From Deltaproteobacteria bacterium (GTDB taxonomy: Bacteria > Bdellovibrionota_B > Oligoflexia > Oligoflexales > Bog-1112): DNA of 32,839 nucleotides. The position numbers and the translations under genes were made by a program. Below, in pieces: positions 3,102 to 22,472 of this stretch. Under the pieces are notes generated by a model. That model saw only the letters and a list, made by a program, of their open reading frames with translations. It searched no databases and had not been told where the DNA came from. The DNA is taken from NCBI GenBank assembly GCA_023250635.1, contig JAHFAI010000024.1:1-32839 (forward strand), read 5' to 3'. The number at the start of each line of letters is the position of its first letter. Position 1 is the first letter of the stretch.

Positions 3102-3593
3102 CTACATGCCATTAACCCACCCCACTAAGCTCTGATACTCACTCGCTGATAAAGTCTTCGAAGTCCGCGGCATATCCCCGCCGCTATTTTTCAAGCGGCT
3201 GATAATATTGCTACTGGTCGCCTTACCGGCAACCACCAGGCCCGCATCGATCCAATCACTATCCGCTTCGAGGGCCGACCAATCATGGCATTCTTCGCAG
3301 TAGCTGGAAATAATCGCAATTGCTGCATTACGGCGGGTGGTCTTCGCAGCCACAACGCTATCACTGCTGATTCCGCTGCTTGCAGTACTAGCGGTACTAG
3401 CGGTACTAGCGGTACTAGCGGTACTAGCGGTACTAGCGGTACTAGCGGTACTAGCCGTGCTGGCAGAACTCCCTCCGACCGCAGAGCTCGAATCCGCAGG
3501 AGGAGTCGCGCTCGACGTCGGCGTTGCCGCTGGCTGGCTGCACGCAGAAAGTGCGAGCACAAAACTCACGCGCTTCAGCATTACTCGCTTCAT
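3102..3593 (-). CDS. small c-type cytochrome-like lipoprotein with repeat linker
   Basis: The 163-residue protein starts with a basic/hydrophobic signal ending ALSAC (Cys18, lipobox). A Ser/Thr/Ala/Pro linker with nine consecutive Ala-Ser-Thr units (44-70) follows, then a compact domain with CEECH at 99-103 (the CxxCH haem c attachment motif) and GGDMP with Met141 as likely sixth haem ligand. The final helix is SASEYQSLVGWVNGM, typical of class I cytochromes and the planctomycete-type cytochrome c domain. It would be an outer-membrane or periplasm-facing lipoprotein holding one haem on a flexible tether. Electron partners are not visible. The start has GGAG 8 nt upstream, lying inside the end of the preceding gene, which stops only 3 nt away, so the two are probably co-transcribed and coupled. 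Confidence 0.82.
   Translation of the reverse strand: MKRVMLKRVSFVLALSACSQPAATPTSSATPPADSSSAVGGSSASTASTASTASTASTASTASTASTASTASSGISSDSVVAAKTTRRNAAIAIISSYCEECHDWSALEADSDWIDAGLVVAGKATSSNIISRLKNSGGDMPRTSKTLSASEYQSLVGWVNGM
3384..3464. repeat. 9-bp tandem repeat inside the cytochrome lipoprotein gene
   Basis: Seven perfect copies of GGTACTAGC (3393-3455) are preceded by one variant unit and followed by one degenerate unit. On the minus strand each unit reads Ala-Ser-Thr. The unit is a multiple of three, so loss or gain would change linker length without breaking the frame. The repeat leaves several other frames open, which creates false ORFs on both strands here. Confidence 0.95.
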
Positions 3594-11196: not shown

Positions 11197-13056
11197 TTAG
11201 CCTTTGGCGATTCTATTGCTCAGCGTTTTAATATTGATGTCGATCCACTCCCTGCCAGGGAGAATTGCTTTAAGCTTATTAAAATAGCTTATTCCTGCAG
11301 GGGCAGAAGAATCTGCGTTAAAAAACGGGGTGGATATACCGACGATGGAATACTCAGCCTCAAGGGGTGCTATCTCGTGTAATAGATTTGTATAGGCGAA
11401 TGTTTGTTGCCAATTATCCAGACCCGCATATGCCGTAGCAATACCGCGATAGGCACGTATTTTGTTGCTTTGGGTGGGGACTGCAGCGAGAAAATCATCT
11501 AAGGCCGCCTGGTAGTTTTTCTCCTCGAGGTAAAAATCTCCGCGCCAGAGGTGGGAATCACTGGTAAAAACATCGTACTGCACTGCTAGATTATAGTGCT
11601 CGATGGCCTTATTTTTTTCGCCTTTAAATTTATACCACAAGGCTACGTTGGTATGGACCACATGCCAATAAGGCGCTTCTTTTAAAGCTTGAAATAAATG
11701 CTCACCCGCTTCTTCGCGGCGTCCCGCAGCGAGCAAAGTCAGGTAGAAGTTAATATGAGAACGAGATGACGGAGCCTTTTTTACGACATCTTCCCAATAT
11801 TGCAAATCAGTAAGATAGACCTTGTTGCGCTCCCAGGTTAAAGTGCCCAGAATCGCCAGGAGCGAAACGACTGCAAGAGCGGATAGCACTCGCAGATTAA
11901 AGGAGATTTGCAGTCGTTGACTCAGTCCCCCGAGGGGAACTAACCAAATAAGAGAGGCCATTGCCACCGGCAAGTAAGGACGGTGCTCATTGACCATTTC
12001 TGAAAGGGGTAGAATAGAAGAAGATGGCGAAAGTAACGCTATATAGGCGAGGGCTAAATAAAAATAGCCGGGAAAGCGCCGATAGATGCCGATTAAAACC
12101 GCAAAAACGGCCAGCCATGCCCACAGGGCAAATAAAACCTCGGGCTGCCACCAATGCTCGAACACTGGGTAGGTTAAGTCATCGGCGATGAGCTTAAAGG
12201 GAGCAAACCACTTCCCCAAATAAAACCACCAGGCGGTAACTTGGGTAAATAAATAAGATAAGGCGCTAAGATTGGAACGGCTAGCCGTATTGTAATCTCG
12301 CAACACCAGCAAACGCACGACGCTATAGATAAGACTAATGAGAAAAAAGGAGGAAAATCGCCGATAGAAGCTTTTTTGCTGCAAGGGTTCAAGCAAATTA
12401 CGCCAGGGGGAGGAGATTTTTTGATATTTAAGAATATCGAGAAAATAAAAAACCGCGAGAGCCGCTATCGCTTCAACTTTGGTAAAGAGCGCCAGAGCGT
12501 AGAGCAGTGGCACCAAATACCCCCGCCAAGCTCCTGGTTTGCTCAGGTAATAGTAGAATCCCATAATGAGAAATGATCCACACAACAGACTCGTCCGTGC
12601 ACAGAGATAATTAACCACCCCGGAAGTGGTGGGATGGACCACATAGATTAAAGCCGGCATAAGCATCCACCAGGCCGAAGCGTTACCGCTATAGCCACTA
12701 GCCGGCAGCTGACACCAGGCGCGGGTAAAGAGAAAAAAATAAGAGGCAAACAGCCCTTGTAGAAGAATCTGCAGCAGATGCCAGGACCAGGTATCTAAGC
12801 CAGAAATCGCGTAATTAAGAGCATAAGTGATGAGATTGATCGGTCTATAGTCGATATTGGAAGCTAAAGCGGAGCTCGCATGGGGATCATAAAAAAATTG
12901 CCCAATATTAGCCAGAGAACGAATCGCCAAATTGTCGACGATAGCATGACCACAATCAAGGTGATACGCATGGTGATAGGTATTTGCAAAAACTAAAAAT
13001 GCCAGCGAAAAAACAACAAAAACACCGACGAAGGTGTGCCACTGTGGTTTGTTCAT
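11197..13056 (-). CDS. TMTC/GT-C-like membrane protein with C-terminal TPRs
   Basis: The first part (about residues 1-420 of 619) contains many membrane helices in the arrangement of GT-C glycosyltransferases, which use polyprenyl-phosphate sugars on the outer side of the inner membrane. The first loop (YHLDCGHAIVDN) and DYRPINLITYALNYAISGLDTWSWHLLQ resemble bacterial TMTC-type proteins. The last 180 residues hold TPR-like helices (PYWHVVHTNVALWYKFKGE, AIEHYNLAV, YQAALDDFLAAV) and a distal module ending DINIKTLSNR that is shared with the protein at 19322-21256. ATG 13056 is chosen (GGGAG about 10 nt upstream) over ATG 13095, which lacks a binding site. It is divergent from the GT2 gene. Transferase activity is inferred, not shown. 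Confidence 0.8.
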   Translation of the reverse strand: MNKPQWHTFVGVFVVFSLAFLVFANTYHHAYHLDCGHAIVDNLAIRSLANIGQFFYDPHASSALASNIDYRPINLITYALNYAISGLDTWSWHLLQILLQGLFASYFFLFTRAWCQLPASGYSGNASAWWMLMPALIYVVHPTTSGVVNYLCARTSLLCGSFLIMGFYYYLSKPGAWRGYLVPLLYALALFTKVEAIAALAVFYFLDILKYQKISSPWRNLLEPLQQKSFYRRFSSFFLISLIYSVVRLLVLRDYNTASRSNLSALSYLFTQVTAWWFYLGKWFAPFKLIADDLTYPVFEHWWQPEVLFALWAWLAVFAVLIGIYRRFPGYFYLALAYIALLSPSSSILPLSEMVNEHRPYLPVAMASLIWLVPLGGLSQRLQISFNLRVLSALAVVSLLAILGTLTWERNKVYLTDLQYWEDVVKKAPSSRSHINFYLTLLAAGRREEAGEHLFQALKEAPYWHVVHTNVALWYKFKGEKNKAIEHYNLAVQYDVFTSDSHLWRGDFYLEEKNYQAALDDFLAAVPTQSNKIRAYRGIATAYAGLDNWQQTFAYTNLLHEIAPLEAEYSIVGISTPFFNADSSAPAGISYFNKLKAILPGREWIDINIKTLSNRIAKG

Positions 13057-13197
13057 GGTTTTTTTTCTCCCGTAAATAACACCTATCTTATGCATTCATA
13101 TTTTAGCGTGAAAATTCTTGTTTCCCACGCAGCAATTATTGCCCGCTACCGCAGTTCCAAGCTGTGTTATTCCTTGAGTAATACAGGAGAACAGTGC

Positions 13198-14067
13198 ATG
13201 TCGTTAACCATGGTTATTCCCGCCTATAATGAAGAAAAATCCCTTGAGGGTTTTTTGCCCAAGCTGCTTAACTATGCCGCTGAGCAGCAATTTTCTGTGA
13301 TAATCGTCAACGATGGCTCCCGCGATCAAACCCAGAGGGTTCTCGAACGCTTTAGCGGGCAGGCGCAGCTTACGGTTATCCACCACAAAGTAAATAACGG
13401 TTATGGCGGGGCCTTGAAGAGTGGCATTCGCGCTGCCTCCACTGCCTATACCATCACCATCGATGCTGATGGTCAGCACCAACTAGAAGATGTAGAAAAG
13501 CTTTATAGCAAAATCAAAGAAACTCAAGCGGATATGATAGTCGGCAAGCGCCCAGGGAGCTCATCCAATCTTTACCGGCGCTTAGGAAAATTCTTAATTC
13601 GTAGTCTTGCCCGGGTTCTCCTCCCCATGCCGATCAGCGATTTAAATAGCGGGATGAAAATTTTCAAAACCGAGATCGCTCAGAAGTATCTTGAACTCTG
13701 CCCTAATTCCATGGCTTTTAGCGACACTATTACCTTAATCTATATCAATGAAAAATTTTTGGTAAGCGAAGAACAAATAACTATTTCACCACGCATATCA
13801 GGTAAAAGCACCATCAATCTAGCTACAGCTATTGATACAGTCGTGGAGATATTGAATCTGGTGACGCTCTTTAATCCCATGCGAATATTCCTTCCCATTT
13901 CTTTGCTTTTTATCGTTGCTGGCATCCTCTGGAATATTCCTATTTTTCTCAAGGGTAATGGGCTAAGTGTCGGTACTTTGCTGCTGATGATCTCGGGGAT
14001 TTTGTTTTTTTGTCTCGGTTTGATCGCCGAGCAACTGTCCTTAATTCGCAAGGGTAGGTATCGTTAA
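13198..14067 (+). CDS. family 2 glycosyltransferase, polyprenyl-phosphate sugar synthase-like
   Basis: A 289-residue GT-A enzyme of the DPM1/GtrB/ArnC group. It shows VIPAYNEE at 6-13, VNDGSRD at 37-43, the DADGQHQ metal/nucleotide motif at 89-95, and a SDLNSGMKIFK segment. It ends with two membrane helices (about 226-246 and 254-275) typical of enzymes that load a sugar from a nucleotide onto undecaprenyl phosphate. The open frame extends back to 13036, but ATG 13198 starts the fold and has GGAG upstream. It is the first gene of a six-gene operon and probably supplies the lipid-linked sugar used by the GT-C proteins nearby. A TTCCAA/TAATAC promoter is possible just before the start, but weak. 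Confidence 0.92.
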   Translation: MSLTMVIPAYNEEKSLEGFLPKLLNYAAEQQFSVIIVNDGSRDQTQRVLERFSGQAQLTVIHHKVNNGYGGALKSGIRAASTAYTITIDADGQHQLEDVEKLYSKIKETQADMIVGKRPGSSSNLYRRLGKFLIRSLARVLLPMPISDLNSGMKIFKTEIAQKYLELCPNSMAFSDTITLIYINEKFLVSEEQITISPRISGKSTINLATAIDTVVEILNLVTLFNPMRIFLPISLLFIVAGILWNIPIFLKGNGLSVGTLLLMISGILFFCLGLIAEQLSLIRKGRYR

Positions 14068-14120
14068 GCAGGATGAACTGCTATACTGGCTAGAAATCCT
14101 CACAGCGGACAGAACTCACC

Positions 14121-15302
14121 TTGAAATCTATAAAACATTTCTCTGCCTTGTTAGCTATCGTGGTCACCGCAATTTTGGTGATGTTTTCCAGTGTAAATTT
14201 TTCCGGCCATTATATCTGGGACGGGGAAATCTATAGTGCGCTGGTAAAAAAATATCTCGTTACGGGAGAGCTCTCCTCCCTTGGTCCAGGAGACCTGCCT
14301 CTCTGGGCTAAGGACATTCCTCAGCAGTCCTATTTTAATCGCATCGCCTATTATTGGGCTGCACAAGTAGTTATGCTGATCTACCCTCTGCACGAGAAAT
14401 TTTTATTTCCCTTACTCGATTTTTTACCGTTTACGGTTGCTGCTATTTTTTTGTATTTAAGCTGCTATCGCTATCTTTCCTTAAGCATTCTTGCAAGCTT
14501 TTTTGCCGCTATCTGGTTGTTGGTGCTGCCAGCGGCTAAAGTCATCTATCAGGTGGTAGCTCACCCCGAGGCACTCTGCTTAATGCTGATGAGCGTTGGT
14601 TTTTACCTCTCCCTGGGTCGTCACCATCTAGCGGCTGCTCTCGTACTCTTATTCGCCATGCTCAGCCGTGAATCAGCAGCGATGATGAGCGTTTATCTGC
14701 TGCTCCATCATTACTGGCAGCAACCTCGCGAGCCCGGCTTACTGCGGCGCTATCGCCCCCAAATGCTCTATGCGGGCAGTGTTTTCGCCGGACTCGCCAT
14801 TCCTTTGTGCATACAGCAACGCTCAAGTCTTTCAAGTTTCTCTTTTTTTAATCTGGTGATAGAAACAAATCGCCTCCACCCTTTACCGTATCTGCTCTTC
14901 AATTTTAATATACTGATCATTCCTTATGTCCTGGGTTTTTGGCGACTCAAACGACAGGAACAGCTCAATCATCTCGCTCTTTGGCTGCTGAGTATTCTCC
15001 TGCTCAGCGCTGCCTTAGATTGGTGGCGAGTACTGTATGGTAATCTTCACTTTGCTGTTTTGCCCCTTGCTGCTATAACGATTTATCGCGTATTCCGCCA
15101 CCAGAGCATCTATGTTTTCGTGCTTATCACTCTCTATCTCGCCAGTTTCCCTGGCAAGCTCAATTGGACCCAGCTAAAAATAGTAACTATTTGGCCCTAC
15201 TGTGTGCTTTTGCTACTTTTTATTGCCCAGAGCTATAGGGAAAAACGATGTACTATATTGTCGGATCAGGTCCCGCAGGAGTCGCCGCAGCTATTCCCTT
15301 AG
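14121..15302 (+). CDS. GT-C-like multi-pass membrane protein
   Basis: A 393-residue hydrophobic protein with about ten predicted helices. After the first helix comes HYIWDGEIYSALVKKYL, with Asp/Glu placed as in the catalytic first loop of GT-C glycosyltransferases (PMT/ArnT-like). Another loop has HPEALCLMLM and MLSRESAAMM. The TTG at 14121 is the first possible start after an in-frame stop at 14091 and begins a normal signal-anchor (MKSIKHFSALLAIV...), but there is no strong ribosome binding site, so the start is uncertain. It lies 53 nt after the GT2 gene and overlaps the next gene by 55 nt. It is likely the transferase that uses the GT2 product; acceptor unknown. Confidence 0.75.
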   Translation: MKSIKHFSALLAIVVTAILVMFSSVNFSGHYIWDGEIYSALVKKYLVTGELSSLGPGDLPLWAKDIPQQSYFNRIAYYWAAQVVMLIYPLHEKFLFPLLDFLPFTVAAIFLYLSCYRYLSLSILASFFAAIWLLVLPAAKVIYQVVAHPEALCLMLMSVGFYLSLGRHHLAAALVLLFAMLSRESAAMMSVYLLLHHYWQQPREPGLLRRYRPQMLYAGSVFAGLAIPLCIQQRSSLSSFSFFNLVIETNRLHPLPYLLFNFNILIIPYVLGFWRLKRQEQLNHLALWLLSILLLSAALDWWRVLYGNLHFAVLPLAAITIYRVFRHQSIYVFVLITLYLASFPGKLNWTQLKIVTIWPYCVLLLLFIAQSYREKRCTILSDQVPQESPQLFP

Positions 15303-16822
15303 TCGAAGCTGGCTTAGCAGTAACGATACTCGACAGTGGTCTGCAGCTTGAGGACTCCGTAAAACAAAAAGTAGCAGATCTTCGCCAGTATTCTCCCGAG
15401 CATTGGTCAACAAGTGATCGGGCTTTTCTGCGAGGAAAAGCTGCTCTCGTCAATGGCAAGCTTCCTCGAAAAACAGTGTTTGGTTCAGATTTTTCCTATC
15501 GGCAACTTCCTCAATTCTTAGTGCAAGGCGATGCCTTCAACCAGAGCGAAAGCTCCTTTGCTGCGGGCGGCTTCTCCACCACCTGGGGAGCTGGGCTCCT
15601 TTCCTATAGCGCCGCGGATACCAGCGATTGGCCTCTACACCTTACGGAGCTATACCCCTATTATCAGGCCGTTCAACGCTGGATACCTCTCGCTGCTGAT
15701 CGTGATGCTTTAGAAAAACAGCATCCTCTCTTTAGTGATTCCTTTAGCAGCTTAACGCGAGGACGCCATATAAGCGCCTGGCTGCAGAGCATCGCTGGAC
15801 GCCGCCGTTCACTAGAACAAGCTGGTTTCACCTATGGGGCGGGGCGATTGGCTCTCAGTGACTGTCGTTACTGTGGCCTCTGTTTAAGCGGCTGCCCCTA
15901 CGATTTTATTTACCGCAGCAGCCACACCCTCGCGTTGCTCCGCCAACGCAGCCCCCAACTGAGCTATCGCCGTGGCCTCGAGGTACAAGAAATTCGCGAA
16001 GAGGCGGGGAGCGTTGCCATTCTTACCCGAGATCTCAACAGCCAAGAGACCATTGTTTTTCATGGAAAACGGGTTTTTTTGGCAGCCGGGGTGCTTAGTA
16101 GTGCTAAGATTTTACTCCATTCCCAACGCTGTTATGGTGAAGAAGTAGAGATAAAAGACAGTCAATACTTTGTTTTCCCCCTGCTAACCCGGGTTCGCTG
16201 TAAATCCCCTCGCCAAGAAGAAACTTTTACGATTGCCCAACAGGTTCTCCATATTGCTCACCCCACCCTTGCTTCTCCAGAAATAAGACTCTCGTTGTAT
16301 CCCTATAACGATTTTCTCTCTCTTACCGTGCAGCAAAAATTAGGAGCCCTGTATCCACTATTTCGTCCCTTTGAGGATTATTTCCTCGGACATTTATTAC
16401 TAGCCCAAGGCTGTTTACCCTCCAAGGTCTCGGGAAGCATCCGCCTAAGCCTGGAGAAACAGCCGAGTGATGGTAGCCTAAGCCTCCACTGTCGCTCTCG
16501 GCTCAATCCCACCAGCACCATCGTTTTTAAAAAACTATTTCGCCACCTTCTTAAAAACACCAGTAACCTCCAGGCGCTTGCCCTCGCCCCTTTGCTGCAA
16601 CGAGGGAAAATTGGTCAGGGTTTTCATATGGGAGCATCCTGGCCAATGGCACTCAATCCCCAAGGGAAATTTTCCAGCGATCTTCTCGGTCGCCCCCAAG
16701 GCTGGCAACGTCTGCATCTGGTCGATGCCTCGGTGCTCCCTTCCCTTGCCAGTGGTTCCATCACCTTTACGATTATGGCAAACGCCTACCGGATTGCCGA
16801 ACAAAGTAGAAATTTAGCTTAG
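15248..16822 (+). CDS. GMC-type FAD oxidoreductase with four-Cys cluster motif
   Basis: The 524-residue protein begins directly with the FAD motif MYYIVGSGPAG (Gly6, 8, 11), so ATG 15248 is the start even though it overlaps the previous gene by 55 nt. RGKAALVNG, GGFSTTWGAG and a C-terminal block (GFHMGASWP with His460, then LHLVDASVLP and FTIMANAYRIAE) fit GMC oxidoreductases, which oxidise alcohol groups. CRYCGLCLSGCPYDF at 206-220 is CxxCxxCxxxCP, found in a cholesterol-oxidase/choline-dehydrogenase-like branch and resembling a [4Fe-4S] ligand set. There is no export signal, so it is probably cytoplasmic or membrane-associated. In this operon a sugar or lipid-linked sugar hydroxyl is the likely substrate (inference). 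Confidence 0.85.
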   Translation: MYYIVGSGPAGVAAAIPLVEAGLAVTILDSGLQLEDSVKQKVADLRQYSPEHWSTSDRAFLRGKAALVNGKLPRKTVFGSDFSYRQLPQFLVQGDAFNQSESSFAAGGFSTTWGAGLLSYSAADTSDWPLHLTELYPYYQAVQRWIPLAADRDALEKQHPLFSDSFSSLTRGRHISAWLQSIAGRRRSLEQAGFTYGAGRLALSDCRYCGLCLSGCPYDFIYRSSHTLALLRQRSPQLSYRRGLEVQEIREEAGSVAILTRDLNSQETIVFHGKRVFLAAGVLSSAKILLHSQRCYGEEVEIKDSQYFVFPLLTRVRCKSPRQEETFTIAQQVLHIAHPTLASPEIRLSLYPYNDFLSLTVQQKLGALYPLFRPFEDYFLGHLLLAQGCLPSKVSGSIRLSLEKQPSDGSLSLHCRSRLNPTSTIVFKKLFRHLLKNTSNLQALALAPLLQRGKIGQGFHMGASWPMALNPQGKFSSDLLGRPQGWQRLHLVDASVLPSLASGSITFTIMANAYRIAEQSRNLA

Positions 16823-16835
16823 CTGGGGAGTTTTT

Positions 16836-17642
16836 GTGAAAATTGCTATTAGTGGTGCTCATGGTTACTTGGGTAAGGCTCTCAGCGATCATTTTGCCCA
16901 GCAGGGACACACGCTGGTCAGGCTTCAGCGTAACGATTGCCCTCTGCAACAGCCAACTATCGAAAAAATTGGCGAAAACTGTCAGACTTTTATTCATTGC
17001 GCTTACGATATGTCCTTAAGCACATGGGAGGATATTTGCCGAGTAAATATCCAAGGCACTACTAAACTTTTTGCTCTTTTAGCAGAAAAAAAAATTCCCC
17101 AGGTTATTTTTATTTCAACCCTGAGTGCCTACCCCGCTTGTCATTCAAACTATGGGCGGGCAAAATACCAGCTTGAGCAAGAAGCCCTCGCTCGGGGCTT
17201 TTTGGTGCTTCGTCCCGGCTTGATCTACGGGGGAGAGCAACGCGGACTAATCGGTAAATTAAAAAAAATCTGTGGCGGACGCTCTCTGCTCCCCCTGATT
17301 GGCAGTGGCCGGCAGGTGCAATACACTACTTTTCTCCCTGATCTGCTTGCCTTTATAAGCGAAGCCGTGGCGAGTGAACTGGGTTCTCCCCAGGCCATAA
17401 GCGCTGCTCACCCTCGCGGTCTAACTTTTCGCACCATCCTTGCCTCATTATCTGGACGGAAGCAAATCCTGTTTATTCCCATCCCCTGGCCACTGGTATG
17501 GTTTGCTTTGTTTCTGCTCGAACGTATGGGGCTACGCCCTCCCTTTGCCAGCGATAGCGTTTTAGGTTTGGTTTATCCCACTACCTCAGCAGATTTTAGC
17601 TCGCCGTTTTGCCTCGAAAAATTTCGTCCTTGGTCAGCATAA
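16836..17642 (+). CDS. NAD-dependent epimerase/dehydratase (extended SDR-like)
   Basis: A 268-residue Rossmann protein starting at a GTG with GGGAG 6 nt upstream. The nucleotide-binding GAHGYLG is at 7-13, STLSAYP near 94-100, and the catalytic pair is Tyr106-x-x-x-Lys110 (NYGRAK). RPGLIYG follows, as in nucleotide-sugar epimerases and reductases. A hydrophobic stretch near the C-terminus (WPLVWFALFLLERM) could bring it to the membrane or bind a lipid substrate. It lies 13 nt after the GMC gene. An FAD oxidase plus SDR pair next to a GT2 enzyme resembles in logic the DprE1/DprE2 two-step epimerase, although GMC and DprE1 folds differ, so this is only an analogy. Confidence 0.85.
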   Translation: MKIAISGAHGYLGKALSDHFAQQGHTLVRLQRNDCPLQQPTIEKIGENCQTFIHCAYDMSLSTWEDICRVNIQGTTKLFALLAEKKIPQVIFISTLSAYPACHSNYGRAKYQLEQEALARGFLVLRPGLIYGGEQRGLIGKLKKICGGRSLLPLIGSGRQVQYTTFLPDLLAFISEAVASELGSPQAISAAHPRGLTFRTILASLSGRKQILFIPIPWPLVWFALFLLERMGLRPPFASDSVLGLVYPTTSADFSSPFCLEKFRPWSA

Positions 17643-17652
17643 GGAGGGCGCT

Positions 17653-18423
17653 TTGGGAAAAAACATCGTACTTATTATGGCTCACTGTGATGACGAAGTT
17701 TTTTTTTCAGCACGAATTCTCCAGGAAATTGCTCTTGGTAATGAGCTTTTTTGTGTTTACATTACTAATTGCCATCATAAATTTACTGATCCCAAAATTC
17801 GCCTTAAAGAATCTTACAACGCCTTGGCGTATCTTGGCGTAGCGAGAGCAAATATTTTCCCGATCGGCATCCATAATAATTTTCCCGATGGGCAGTCATT
17901 TCGCTATATCGACTCCATCTTTAGTACGGTGCAAGCGGCACTCACCAAGATTCGTATGGATGAGATTCTTACCCTCGCCTGGGAGGGTGGTCATGTGGAC
18001 CACGATGTCGCCCATTTAATTGCCCGAGCCTTGGCTAACTCTTCTTCAAGAAATATTAAGCTCTGGGAATTCTCTGCTTATCACGCGTATAGATGCAAAA
18101 AACCTTGGTATCATACCATGGCGCTGCTGAGTTCTCCACCAGCAAGTTCACCCATACGGGAACGAAGACTAACTCTTTGGCAAGGCATACACTGCTTTGC
18201 CGTAGTGCGTTTTTTTAAATCGCAGTGGCAAACCTGGTTGGGATTGGGATTGGGCTGCCTCGTTGAACTTGTTCTCTTTCGCCGAGAACGTTCTCGACTT
18301 CTCCCTAAGGAGTTTAGCCTGAAGCCACCCCATCCCGGCTCCTTGCTCTACGAGCAGCGCTTTAAAAAAAGCTATGAGGAATTCTTCGAGGGCGTGAGCC
18401 TATTTTGCCAAACGAGGCTATAA
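17653..18423 (+). CDS. PIG-L/LmbE family N-deacetylase
   Basis: A 256-residue protein whose TTG start is fixed by AAGGAGG 5 nt upstream. The zinc motif is AHCDDE at 10-15 (family usual AHPDDE) with Asp13 as general base and His11/Asp14 as ligands. GGHVDHD supplies His114 and His117. PIG-L enzymes remove an N-acetyl group from GlcNAc-containing substrates (GlcNAc-PI, mycothiol and bacillithiol precursors, aminoglycosides). The Pro-to-Cys change inside the motif is unusual but leaves all ligands in place. It sits 10 nt after the SDR and 4 nt before a GNAT gene, suggesting deacetylation followed by a different N-acylation of the same amino sugar. Confidence 0.88.
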   Translation: MGKNIVLIMAHCDDEVFFSARILQEIALGNELFCVYITNCHHKFTDPKIRLKESYNALAYLGVARANIFPIGIHNNFPDGQSFRYIDSIFSTVQAALTKIRMDEILTLAWEGGHVDHDVAHLIARALANSSSRNIKLWEFSAYHAYRCKKPWYHTMALLSSPPASSPIRERRLTLWQGIHCFAVVRFFKSQWQTWLGLGLGCLVELVLFRRERSRLLPKEFSLKPPHPGSLLYEQRFKKSYEEFFEGVSLFCQTRL

Positions 18424-18427
18424 TTTC

Positions 18428-19297
18428 ATGCAAAACTATACCTTTAAACCCTTGGATCTCAGCGCTGCTGGCCTTGTTCAGCTGCAACAATTAATGGCCA
18501 TGGTCTGGCCTCAGGCGAGACACCTCGATTATTCCTATCTTCACTGGTTGTACAACGAAAATCCGGCGGGAGCTGCCCTTGGTATAAATGCCTGGGAGGG
18601 TGAAGAACTAGCAGGCCACTATGCGCTTCTTCCTCTTAATGCCTTGCGCTTTGCTCAACCCACTCGTGGCGCTTTATCACTTAATACTGCTGTCCACCCC
18701 CATCATCAGGGTAAGGGGCTTTTTCTTTGTCTTGCTCAGCAAAGCTATGATTTAGCAATAACCCGGGGAATAACCCATGTGCTAGGCGTTGCTAACGCCA
18801 ACAGTACCCCCGGCTTTACCCGCAAACTTGGTTTTTCGCTTATTGGACCTCTCGACGTCCGGATTAGCTTTAGCCTCCCTCAGCTTCGCACCACCCCCTT
18901 AGGGCCTATCCCTTCCTGGCAACGTAGCTGGTCTAATCACGAGCTTGCCTGGCGGCTCGCCAATCCCCATGGAAGATATAGTAGCGTGGCTGAAGGGGCC
19001 ACCCGCTGGGTGTTAGCCTCCGTAGCCCAAGCAGGTACGGGCTCGATTTTAAAGATCGAGCAGCGAGCCGAGGGCATCGCCAGTATCGATGCTGCTATTC
19101 CTCGTAAAAATCCTCCGTTATGTAAAGTCTGGCTGGGCCTTAGTCCACAGATACATCCTTCTATTTTTTCCTTTCCCCTGCCCCAGCGTTTGCGGCCTTC
19201 GCCGCTAAATCTGATCTATCGTTCCCTCAGTCCTGGCGACGAATCTCCCGGGCGCGCAAGTATTCAGATTGAGGGAATCGATTTTGATGCATTTTAA
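18428..19297 (+). CDS. GNAT-family N-acyltransferase
   Basis: A 289-residue protein with an N-terminal GNAT domain. AVHPHHQGKGLFLCL near 91-105 is the acyl-CoA pyrophosphate loop (QGKG), followed by GITHVLGVANANSTPGFTRKLGFSLIG, the beta5 bulge/helix region. The C-terminal half (about 150-289) is less clear and may be a second, degenerate domain. It is the last gene of the operon, 4 nt after the PIG-L deacetylase, with GAGG about 10 nt before ATG. It probably acylates the amine freed by the deacetylase; donor and substrate are unknown. It is convergent with the membrane protein at 19322, 24 nt away. Confidence 0.82.
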   Translation: MQNYTFKPLDLSAAGLVQLQQLMAMVWPQARHLDYSYLHWLYNENPAGAALGINAWEGEELAGHYALLPLNALRFAQPTRGALSLNTAVHPHHQGKGLFLCLAQQSYDLAITRGITHVLGVANANSTPGFTRKLGFSLIGPLDVRISFSLPQLRTTPLGPIPSWQRSWSNHELAWRLANPHGRYSSVAEGATRWVLASVAQAGTGSILKIEQRAEGIASIDAAIPRKNPPLCKVWLGLSPQIHPSIFSFPLPQRLRPSPLNLIYRSLSPGDESPGRASIQIEGIDFDAF

Positions 19298-19321: not shown

Positions 19322-21256
19322 CTACTTAAGTCTATTGTTTAGAGTAGTTATATTGATATCGGCAAAGGTATCTTCCGGATACAGCAGCTTAATTTGTTGA
19401 TAAAAGCTAATAGCTGCACGAGTAAAATCAGCACGCGACCAAAAAGGTCCCGCTATGTCTAATAAGGAAAAATAGGTGTTTTGGCGATCAAGCTCAGCAG
19501 CCTGTTTGGTGAAATTAAAGGCTTTTTGCCAATCTCCACAACCTGCATAGGCTGTAGCTAAACTACGATATAAGGCGAAAGAGGCAAGGTTTTCACCCTT
19601 GGCATATTCCAAGTACTCCAGCGCTCGTTGATAGTCGTGAGTGGCGATAAAACCCTCACCAAAACGCAAGGCGAGCTCCCTGCTCGGCATTCTCTTACTT
19701 GCTCGTTCGAGGTTGAGAAAAAGGCCAAGCTGCACATTCCCATTGAGCAAATTATTCTGATACCCTTGCAAATTATTCGAAACGATAAAATCAGCTTCTT
19801 TACGTACCACGGTCTGAACAAAACCTCCCAAGTAAAAATCCGCCGCAAAAAGAGCCTGGCTGCCCAGCTGTTCCCTCAGTTGATCATCGATATAGATCAC
19901 TGCCGCCGCAGGCAACTGATCTCGTACTCGTTGCATTTCAGCAGTTTGCGAAATATACGCCGCATGTTCTGCTTGCTTATGCTTGGTAACGTCGATCTGC
20001 GCCGCGAGCAAAACGCTACAGCAGCCTAGGGCCAGAAGCCCTGCACTCGGCAGGGCAAAAACCCTGAGCAGGGAAGCAGTGCGTGGAAAATAACGCCTGA
20101 CTAACTGGGCAAAACCCTGGGGGATCTGCAGAAAAACCGCCCAAAAAACCAGAGCCGAGGCCGTCGCATATATAAACTGAAATCCGTGAAAAACAACAAA
20201 ATGAAGCAGGGGAAAGATCCAGAAAAAAAGCGAAAAAAACAAGCTCAGCAGCAGTATCCGCTGCCTACTCAAACAGCTGCCAAGCATTGCAAGCCCTAAA
20301 ACAAAGCCAACCCAGAGATTGGGGGGCGGCAGGTAGGCGAGGATTCGTGAAGGGCTGAAAACATCACTGAGCAAGGCTAGATAGAGGTTATAAATATAAG
20401 ACAGCTCGAAATAGCTCTTAAAACCTTGATTTAACGCAGCATTCATACCAAAACGATTAGCTGCCGAGCTTAGCGCCTCACTCGCGAGTATAGGCTGAGC
20501 GGTGAGGAGATGCTCACCATAGAGTTGCCCAGCTAAAATACCGCTTGCGAGCACGATAGCAAAGCCCCATAGAGCAGCGAGAAATGCAAGCTGCCGACGT
20601 TGCGCTGGCAGCCACAAGCAGGCTATGCTGTGGACTACGGTAAAGGAAGCCAGCAAGGCAAAAGGCTGCCAGCCAAGCATCAGGGCAGAGAATAACTTGA
20701 GAAAAAGCTGCCCCCGCCTGCCTTCTTGCAGCCAACAAACCAAACCGTGAAACAGCAAAAACAAACCACATAACGCGGGGCTGTCGTTAAAAGTCATATC
20801 TGCATAATAAAGTGGAGTAAAGCCAGCAAAGGCGAGAGCCGTCGCTGCGAGAGCAAGCAGGGGATTGCTCATTAAGCGAGACATGCTGAGAAAGGCACCG
20901 TACATTGCCAGTAAATAAAAAAGCAGCATAAGTTTACGAGCAACATTGATCTCCAAAGAAAGCTGGGGAGCGACGGGCAGCATAGCTGCTTTCATCAAAA
21001 TAAACGTGGTAAGGGGGAAACGGACATAGGTGAGATAGCTGGTTTTTTCCTCAGCATCAATGCTTGCCCGTGCATAGGGAATCAACTTGTTTGTCCAAGA
21101 AATGTTTTTTGCCAGACTAAGACCGTGGGCGGAAACAAAACCATGATGACCAGGGGGAAAAGCGGGTAGCTCAGCATCTAAGCACAGAAAAAACACGGCG
21201 AGGATAAAAAAGAGAGAGCGAGCTAAACTAAACTCCTTAGCGGTAAAGCCAACCAT
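19322..21256 (-). CDS. GT-C (family 39-like) membrane protein with shared TPR tail
   Basis: The 645-residue product has a signal-anchor, a first outer loop (LPAFPPGHHGFVSAHGLSLAKN) as in GT-C sugar transferases, roughly ten to twelve membrane helices, and a soluble C-terminal third with TPR-like helices. The last part (LYRSLATAYAGCGDWQKAF... to DINITTLNNRLK) closely matches the tail of the protein at 11197-13056. ATG 21256 has AGGAG 5 nt upstream. The longer frame to 21382 lies inside the penicillin-binding protein gene and is not used. It starts 10 nt after that gene, so the two are likely co-transcribed. Role: probable periplasmic transfer of lipid-linked sugar (inference). Confidence 0.82.
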   Translation of the reverse strand: MVGFTAKEFSLARSLFFILAVFFLCLDAELPAFPPGHHGFVSAHGLSLAKNISWTNKLIPYARASIDAEEKTSYLTYVRFPLTTFILMKAAMLPVAPQLSLEINVARKLMLLFYLLAMYGAFLSMSRLMSNPLLALAATALAFAGFTPLYYADMTFNDSPALCGLFLLFHGLVCWLQEGRRGQLFLKLFSALMLGWQPFALLASFTVVHSIACLWLPAQRRQLAFLAALWGFAIVLASGILAGQLYGEHLLTAQPILASEALSSAANRFGMNAALNQGFKSYFELSYIYNLYLALLSDVFSPSRILAYLPPPNLWVGFVLGLAMLGSCLSRQRILLLSLFFSLFFWIFPLLHFVVFHGFQFIYATASALVFWAVFLQIPQGFAQLVRRYFPRTASLLRVFALPSAGLLALGCCSVLLAAQIDVTKHKQAEHAAYISQTAEMQRVRDQLPAAAVIYIDDQLREQLGSQALFAADFYLGGFVQTVVRKEADFIVSNNLQGYQNNLLNGNVQLGLFLNLERASKRMPSRELALRFGEGFIATHDYQRALEYLEYAKGENLASFALYRSLATAYAGCGDWQKAFNFTKQAAELDRQNTYFSLLDIAGPFWSRADFTRAAISFYQQIKLLYPEDTFADINITTLNNRLK

Positions 21257-21266
21257 GAGATCTCCT

Positions 21267-22472
21267 CTACTGGGCTGCAACTCGTGGCATCGACGGAACA
21301 ATGCGATTATCCGCCCAATGCTCCTGGTACCAGAGCCACAGGGCCTCAGCGGCAAGCTGACTCCCCCGTATTTGCCAGGCACCGCTATTGACCACCACGG
21401 CGCTGACCACTACTTGGGGTTTATCGTAGGGCATCAAGCCGCTAAACCAGGTAATGCGTCCCTTCGGGGATTTGCCGGTAAGGGATCCGGTTTTACCACC
21501 AGCTAACTCCCTAATTTTAAGGTATTTTTTTGAACGAAAGCCACCACGAGCTGATCCCTTGATCACGGTCTGGTGCATGAGGGTTCGCAACTGTTGGCTA
21601 TGCTCATTGCTCAGGAGACGCCGTTCGCTGGCAGCGCTATTCAATAGAGCATGTTTATCACTGCCATCTTGAACCCGCAGGGGTAAACTCACCCCATCGC
21701 GAGCAATGGCAAGATTAATCCAAGCCGCGTGCATGGGGCTTATTCCTACGCGACCAAAACCTGCTGCGTACTTTCCCACGCTCCCCACACTGGATGAATT
21801 TGGCTGCGGCGGAACATGAGGGCTTTGTTTGAGGAAAAAATCGGTGGCAATGCCGCCATCCCAGCCAAATTTGCTGGCATAGAGCGACAGCACATTGAGA
21901 CCCAGATATTTTACCGCCATCTGTGCGAAAAATCCATTGCATGATATGGCGAAGGCCTGCTCTAGGGTGAAATTTCGTCCCTCCTTGCCAGCCTTGTCTC
22001 GTAACCAACTTCCCTGAGGATTAACCTCAGCACATCCGCCCGTGAGATTGCGCACCTTATCAGCAGCGGTTGCCCCTACCTCCAACAAAGCGGCGGTGGT
22101 CACGGTTTTAAAAAGAGAAGCTGCTGGAAAATCGCTGTACAATGCCGTATGGGTGCTGGCACCATTGGGATCATGGCTCCACTGCTCAGGCTCCTTGCCC
22201 TGGGCCATAGCGATGATGGTACCGCTGGCCACATCTACCATAACTACCGCGGCAATCGGTTGACCGCGTTTTGAGATAAATGCTTCAAGTTGCTGCTGAA
22301 TTTTGCCATCGATGGTCAGCCGTTGTGCTTTTCCCTCAGAGGACTTAACTACCACGACATTGTTTTTGTCGGGCGAGGGAAGATGCCTTGGTAATTTTAT
22401 CGGTGACTGACCGACGCCAGCAGGACTATAACAAGTAAGAATGATCAGCGTTAATCGGCTTAGGATTTTCAC
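21267..22472 (-). CDS. penicillin-binding transpeptidase, compact form
   Basis: A 401-residue exported protein with the three transpeptidase motifs: SLFK (Ser119 nucleophile, Lys122), SCN (Ser177, Asn179) and KTG (Lys327). Surrounding FPAASLFKTVTTAALLEVG and FGRVGISPMHAAWINLAIARDG match class B PBP transpeptidase domains, but the usual long N-terminal dimerisation domain is missing. Only about 90 residues precede the core. It would cross-link or remodel peptidoglycan in the periplasm. The GTG at 22472 (AGGAAG 6 nt upstream) gives a signal peptide VKILSRLTLIILTC; the GTG at 22520 is less likely. It is divergent from lptF, with 5' ends touching. Confidence 0.88.
   Translation of the reverse strand: MKILSRLTLIILTCYSPAGVGQSPIKLPRHLPSPDKNNVVVVKSSEGKAQRLTIDGKIQQQLEAFISKRGQPIAAVVMVDVASGTIIAMAQGKEPEQWSHDPNGASTHTALYSDFPAASLFKTVTTAALLEVGATAADKVRNLTGGCAEVNPQGSWLRDKAGKEGRNFTLEQAFAISCNGFFAQMAVKYLGLNVLSLYASKFGWDGGIATDFFLKQSPHVPPQPNSSSVGSVGKYAAGFGRVGISPMHAAWINLAIARDGVSLPLRVQDGSDKHALLNSAASERRLLSNEHSQQLRTLMHQTVIKGSARGGFRSKKYLKIRELAGGKTGSLTGKSPKGRITWFSGLMPYDKPQVVVSAVVVNSGAWQIRGSQLAAEALWLWYQEHWADNRIVPSMPRVAAQ

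Follow-up and report, generated by a model that had tools for sequence, protein, structure and literature searches.

What would a bacterium make with six closely packed genes for two likely glycosyltransferases, two redox enzymes, a deacetylase, and an acyltransferase? The question is raised by an operon in a 32,839-nucleotide (nt) stretch of DNA, here referred to as the window, from a Deltaproteobacteria bacterium of the phylum Bdellovibrionota_B (GenBank assembly GCA_023250635.1, contig JAHFAI010000024.1; genome size, 2.63 Mb). Six consecutive open reading frames (ORFs), all on the plus strand, encode in order a GT2 protein similar to polyprenyl-phosphate sugar synthases, a putative GT-C glycosyltransferase, a GMC-type flavoprotein dehydrogenase, an extended short-chain dehydrogenase/reductase (SDR), a PIG-L superfamily de-N-acetylase, and a GNAT N-acyltransferase. 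The ORFs, their order and common strand, and the gaps of 53, −55, 13, 10, and 4 nt listed in the initial annotation were all reproduced here. The operon is real, accessory, modular, and related to surface glycans. The reading that we favor, at a probability of roughly 0.45, is that it builds an unusual sugar and transfers it to a surface glycan, i.e., the lipopolysaccharide (LPS) core or O-chain or another glycolipid; the best-supported scheme is a Gtr/Arn-like pathway for a lipid-linked sugar with two editing steps. Our main interest is in the GMC-SDR pair and in an Fe-S-type cysteine motif in the GMC protein, which was absent from the initial annotation.

The GMC dehydrogenase and its SDR neighbor

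The GMC protein matches GMC_oxred_N and GMC_oxred_C of Pfam only under the curated cut-off. A profile of this protein and its relatives matched FAD-dependent glucose dehydrogenase (FAD-GDH; 6a2u/8hdd) in the PDB at 1.8e-22 and, more weakly, pyranose oxidases, fructose dehydrogenase (FDH), and 6'''-hydroxyparomomycin C oxidase; the PDB relatives are mainly sugar oxidases and dehydrogenases. The GxGxxG motif from residue 6 as well as His460 and Asn512, at the GMC His/Asn positions, are invariant in 8/8 aligned sequences, while a homologue outside this alignment (G535) has kept the His and lost the Asn. An identity as the mycofactocin protein MftG was rejected, the match being weak and far under the cut-off and no further mycofactocin gene being seen. 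The AlphaFold model (pLDDT 31) was set aside.

GMC residues 206 to 217 (CRYCGLCLSGCP) follow the pattern CxxCxxCxxxCP. The 6+4 spacing of C206, C212, and C216 is identical to that of Cys212, Cys218, and Cys222 in Burkholderia cepacia FAD-GDH (BcGDH), which are the ligands of a [3Fe-4S] cluster (PMC6719666), and the HMMER alignment superposes the cysteine-rich stretches of the two proteins. All four cysteines are present in five of the eight lineages, exactly the three ligand positions in two, and none in one (G475); a Fer4 match at the motif was below the cut-off. Thus, the operon enzyme has the GMC scaffold, the His/Asn pair, and the [3Fe-4S]-spaced cysteine triad in common with BcGDH, while most of its relatives differ from BcGDH by a fourth cysteine that gives a ferredoxin-like pattern. 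Unlike the direct electron transfer-type complexes of BcGDH and FDH, the operon is without genes for a small hitchhiker or multihaem c subunit, and no signal peptide was seen in its GMC protein. We regard the motif as a putative Fe-S cluster site and, because the triad has the spacing of the [3Fe-4S] ligands, the enzyme is likely to hand its electrons to a respiratory carrier.

To place these genes in other genomes, we searched 53 to 58 genomes of the host phylum, 369 of Gammaproteobacteria, and up to 399 of Pseudomonadota. GMC, GT-C, and PIG-L had no match in the other host-phylum genomes, on the basis of which we consider the operon accessory. The GMC profile matched 1/369 gammaproteobacterial genomes (the metagenome-assembled genome [MAG] with locus L005) and 6/399 genomes of Pseudomonadota, the same MAG included; viral contigs scanned with this profile gave no match. 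In the open-licence literature, we found no relevant publication on GMC enzymes in polysaccharide loci.

The SDR matches Epimerase PF01370 (8.5e-11), and a GMC gene adjoins an SDR gene of the same subtype in five lineages besides the window (six in all), in glycan or LPS loci, which bears out the redox pair proposed in the initial annotation. In the MAG locus L005, GMC is followed after 14 nt by SDR and then by a multi-transmembrane (TM) ORF that runs off the contig, with genes for a Kdo kinase and a GT9 upstream of GMC. In Azospirillum (L002), a GT9-GMC pair and SDR are convergent; on Rhizobium plasmids, SDR and GMC overlap by 4 nt and are clustered with genes for a GHMP kinase, a HAD/nucleotidyltransferase, an epimerase, and LPG_synthase_TM; in G535, GMC adjoins SDR; and in G475, the order is GT2-x-GMC-SDR within a polysaccharide locus. 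At each locus, a single ORF resembles the window SDR at E<1e-3, namely the direct neighbor of GMC, even though further SDRs occur in L003 and L028. With random placement among the ORFs of the loci, a crude calculation gives a chance of ~1.6e-4 for this adjacency. Independently, the window SDR as a query finds the Rhizobium plasmids, at the gene adjoining GMC.

In two further lineages, a DegT sugar aminotransferase gene is close to GMC: G472 has no window-type SDR near GMC, and G484, in which GMC is at the contig start, has none downstream. The DegT proteins of the two lineages share 48% identity. Such a neighbor is as expected if the GMC enzyme yields a keto-sugar open to either reduction or amination; these neighborhoods suggest that its product may feed into either reaction. 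The coordinates of these GMC relatives near DegT aminotransferases, instead of SDR, are L025 81-3679 and L027 7724-10813.

Oxidation of a sugar hydroxyl by an FAD-dependent enzyme, followed in related pathways by amination, is also known for the aminoglycoside 6'-dehydrogenases, e.g., AprQ. It is conceivable, if highly improbable, that the operon makes a secreted small pseudo-oligosaccharide or glycolipid metabolite in an aminoglycoside-like assembly by a glycosyltransferase, a deacetylase, and an FAD-dependent 6'-dehydrogenase. Aminoglycoside assembly includes a deacetylase step. The hydroxyparomomycin oxidase among the PDB matches and the kanamycin and apramycin pathways, in which an FAD-dependent or other dehydrogenase follows glycosyl transfer (PMC5461906), agree with this idea, but the window ORFs scanned include no cyclitol or aminotransferase genes, the GT2 with TM segments and its multi-TM partner suggest membrane-bound donors, and the homologues sit in polysaccharide/LPS loci. 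In contrast to AprQ-type dehydrogenases, the operon GMC shows no sign of a small-molecule product.

The neighborhoods also bear on the substrate of the redox pair. Several GMC-SDR loci hold GT9 or heptose-type genes, and genes of the GT9 heptosyltransferase type are present in the window, L005, and L002. These genes, together with those for the GHMP kinase, HAD phosphatase/nucleotidyltransferase, and epimerase in Rhizobium, would be consistent with GMC and SDR taking a nucleotide sugar or a soluble phosphorylated sugar, e.g., a heptose, rather than a lipid-linked sugar as their substrate, with GT2 and GT-C then using the product. We consider this distinctly unlikely, given the GT2 and multi-TM genes at the loci of the window, G472, and G475 and given that the published redox epimerization in such systems is on undecaprenyl phosphate (undP)- or decaprenyl phosphate-linked pentoses (PMC11127046).

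The closest functional parallel for a pair acting on a lipid-linked sugar is DprE1/DprE2, which converts decaprenyl-phosphate-ribose to -arabinose. The initial annotation drew this parallel, which is apt in its logic, an oxidation by a flavoenzyme being proposed to precede reduction by an SDR on a lipid-linked sugar and the flavoenzyme gene being paired with SDR in all six lineages, whereas the enzymes themselves are from unrelated families. The DprE1 flavoenzyme has a VAO-type fold. By Pfam and PDB profile matches, that of the operon is of the GMC type with an Fe-S cysteine motif, and its SDR partner belongs to the extended epimerase type. By analogy, GMC and SDR may act like DprE1/DprE2 without belonging to that family. 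Going further, we tentatively propose, while considering it rather doubtful, that Fe-S GMC enzymes and dedicated extended SDRs form a widely scattered, undescribed redox epimerization pair for lipid-linked sugars that is unrelated in sequence to DprE1/DprE2, is joined here to N-acyl exchange by PIG-L/GNAT to give a new amino sugar and, with DegT replacing SDR elsewhere, could feed either epimerization or amination. Redox epimerization of polyprenyl-linked sugars has so far been documented for DprE1/DprE2 and a few O-antigen pentofuranose systems, and the authors of a 2024 study of the latter state that they were aware of no further epimerases in side-chain systems of the O-antigen (PMC11127046). 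If the proposal is true, this would be a second, unrelated pair, and GMC-SDR adjacency would offer a means to search for unknown glycans.

The PIG-L and GNAT proteins

PIG-L matches PF02585 (2.1e-12) and has the AHPDDE-like and HxDH metal motifs in the form of AHCDDE and HVDH. H11, D13, D14, E15, H114, D116, and H117 as well as a C-terminal PHxGxLxYExR motif are invariant in 4/4 family members. Using the protein as a query, we obtained matches in 5/369 gammaproteobacterial genomes at 1e-5, three of them over the full length, and with a profile in 1/289 genomes of Pseudomonadota; tblastn of plasmids with PIG-L and GT-C gave no match. The closest PIG-L relatives (L021 8253-9071 and L022 7748-8506) are near genes for a beta-ketoacyl synthase and an exporter instead of sugar genes. 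GNAT matches PF00583 (9.3e-6), and its profile matched 3/288 genomes.

GNAT and PIG-L genes are directly adjacent in two further genomes, in both cases with a GT2 gene just upstream. In G691, GT2 is followed by GNAT and then PIG-L; an EamA half-transporter gene is divergent from GT2, and a gene for a PMT-type GT-C lies within 5 kb; as read from sequence, the locus also has a WecB-like epimerase gene and export genes. The G691 GNAT is 40% identical to that of the operon over nearly its full length. In G078, GT2, an apparently frame-broken GNAT (L023 6631-7050), and PIG-L follow in succession. The same adjacency is found in Pseudomonas LPS-core clusters (PMC8005017), where, in a comparison of gene adjacency, PA5002 (dnpA, PIG-L) lies beside PA5003 (GNAT) in an LPS locus. 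Thus, the deacetylase/acyltransferase pair named in the initial annotation also recurs elsewhere, and the occurrence of both pairs in glycan/LPS loci supports its suggestion that the genes belong to surface-glycan metabolism. Work on PaWaaG proposes de-N-acetylation of N-acetylgalactosamine by DnpA followed by alanylation by an unknown ligase or transferase (PMC10579960), and the recurrent PIG-L/GNAT pair is relevant to the identity of the enzyme that re-acylates galactosamine in the Pseudomonas core.

The separate recurrence of the pairs raises the possibility that the operon combines two independent modules, with GMC/SDR (together with GT2/GT-C) editing one sugar and PIG-L/GNAT removing the N-acetyl group of another hexosamine and re-acylating it, e.g., in the assembled LPS core, as partly proposed for Pseudomonas DnpA. 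The two pairs are conserved apart and were never seen together outside the window, and the Pseudomonas core loci list PIG-L and GNAT without GMC/SDR (PMC8005017, PMC10579960), no GMC/SDR/GT-C operon being listed there. The close packing of all six genes and the position of GT2 beside GNAT-PIG-L in G691 and G078, on the other hand, favor a common substrate route, and we find two modules somewhat unlikely.

A more distant GNAT relative lies in a nonulosonate locus of the NeuB type, two genes away from a PIG-L that belongs to another subtype (G670; L035 6717-9513), and one on a Pseudosulfitobacter plasmid is near a polysaccharide deacetylase gene.

A proposed lipid-linked pathway for an edited sugar

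GT2 matches PF00535 (2.4e-30) and, with TM segments at residues 221 and 253, has the GtrB/ArnC-type feature of a GT2 domain with C-terminal TM segments. It resembles the AglJ and ArnC models over their full length but scores far under their cut-offs, and it is 30% identical (E 1e-28) to the GT2 of the G472 GMC locus. From these features, GT2 is predicted to be a synthase that moves a sugar from a nucleoside diphosphate sugar onto polyprenyl phosphate. Of the six family calls in the initial annotation, those for GT2, GMC, SDR, PIG-L, and GNAT held, while that of GT-C is based on topology: this protein has no Pfam or NCBIfam family match, its seven hydropathy segments and acidic first loop (IWDGEIY) are those features that we could read, and its AlphaFold model (pLDDT 48) is too poor for use.

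In the favored lipid-linked pathway, GT2 would transfer a hexosamine, or a sugar like it, to undP at the inner face. The GMC dehydrogenase would turn one hydroxyl into a keto group, with electrons passing via FAD and an Fe-S cluster to a respiratory carrier, and SDR would reduce the ketone from the opposite face using NAD(P)H, for a net epimerization. PIG-L would strip the N-acetyl group and GNAT would add a different acyl (or aminoacyl) group. After flipping, GT-C would transfer the sugar at the periplasmic face. We infer the identity of the sugar, a start from N-acetylglucosamine, the lipid linkage, the net epimerization, the sharing of a single sugar, and the order of the steps.

Three-component undP-sugar systems consist of an undP-sugar synthase, a flippase, and a GT-C, with auxiliary epimerases that include DprE1/DprE2 homologues (PMC11127046). 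The operon is like these extracytoplasmic glycosylation systems (Gtr, GT136 undP-pentofuranose, Arn) in that genes for a probable polyprenyl-phosphate sugar synthase, a multi-TM protein that may be the transferase, and sugar-altering enzymes are clustered. It differs from them in having a GT2 rather than a phosphoribosyl pyrophosphate-using synthase, in being without a flippase gene, in the addition of PIG-L and GNAT, and in redox enzymes of other families. Compared with the Arn pathway for 4-amino-4-deoxy-arabinose (Ara4N), the operon is without the decarboxylase and aminotransferase of the ArnA/ArnB type, no aminotransferase being found among the window ORFs scanned.

Several observations weigh against a single pathway of this kind. 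The initial annotation read the six genes as a single pathway and named rare co-occurrence elsewhere as grounds for rejecting it; none of the other genomes searched contained the full set and no locus that we read carries all six, and we therefore rejected the six genes as a conserved unit, while the two pairs stay intact. No GMC was found in the PIG-L-GNAT loci elsewhere, and no PIG-L of the window type in the GMC-SDR loci elsewhere. The PIG-L relatives in G098 and G292 are near ketoacyl-synthase rather than sugar genes. The GT9 and heptose-type genes are just as compatible with a substrate linked to a nucleotide or to the core. Finally, the GT-C identity is suggested by hydropathy topology and gene position, and neither the six genes nor the window ORFs that were scanned include one for a flippase (GtrA, SMR/EamA, or MATE).

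Operon layout and neighboring genes

The coordinates of the six genes and their motifs are listed in Table 1. The GT2 ORF is open from a GTG at 13036, and the likely start is the ATG at 13198. Shine-Dalgarno-like sequences precede GT2 (AGGAG), GMC (AGGGA), SDR (GGGGAG), and PIG-L (AGGAGG), while promoter and terminator scans gave results at about chance level. The GC content at third codon positions (GC3) of the six genes is 0.45 to 0.51, like that of the remainder of the window; recent transfer, as judged by composition, was dropped because GC3 and GC of the operon resemble those of its neighbors.

Table 1. Genes and motifs of the operon (window coordinates)
Feature	Position	Strand	Details
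GT2 polyprenyl-phosphate sugar synthase-like (ArnC/GtrB/Dpm1 type)	13198..14067	+	289 aa, two C-terminal TM segments
Multi-spanning membrane protein, probable GT-C glycosyltransferase	14121..15302	+	393 aa, TTG start; inferred assignment
GMC-type flavoprotein dehydrogenase	15248..16822	+	524 aa; profile of relatives, motifs
CRYCGLCLSGCP motif, putative Fe-S cluster site	15863..15898	+	GMC residues 206-217
Extended SDR reductase/epimerase	16836..17642	+	268 aa, GTG start; PF01370
SDR NAD-binding GxxGxxG	16854-16874	+	motif
SDR catalytic motif YGRAK	17151-17165	+	motif
PIG-L superfamily Zn de-N-acetylase	17653..18423	+	256 aa, TTG start; PF02585
PIG-L metal motif AHCDDE	17680-17697	+	motif
PIG-L metal motif HVDH	17992-18003	+	motif
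GNAT N-acyltransferase	18428..19297	+	289 aa; PF00583

Elsewhere in the window is a gene for an LptF/LptG protein, which makes an LPS-type envelope likely. The products of the genes flanking the operon (11197-13095 and 19322-21382, both on the minus strand) have multiple TM segments and, toward the C terminus, TPR repeats; their C-terminal ~110 residues are 32% identical to each other. In appearance they are TMTC-like membrane proteins of the GT-C/TPR kind, and the glyco-locus may for this reason exceed six genes. Farther away, the ORF at 546-1646 has a weak TupA-like ATP-grasp match, below the cut-off, and the product of that at 3102-3593, lipoprotein-like by prediction, has a long STA repeat tract and matches cytochrome c weakly, below the cut-off.

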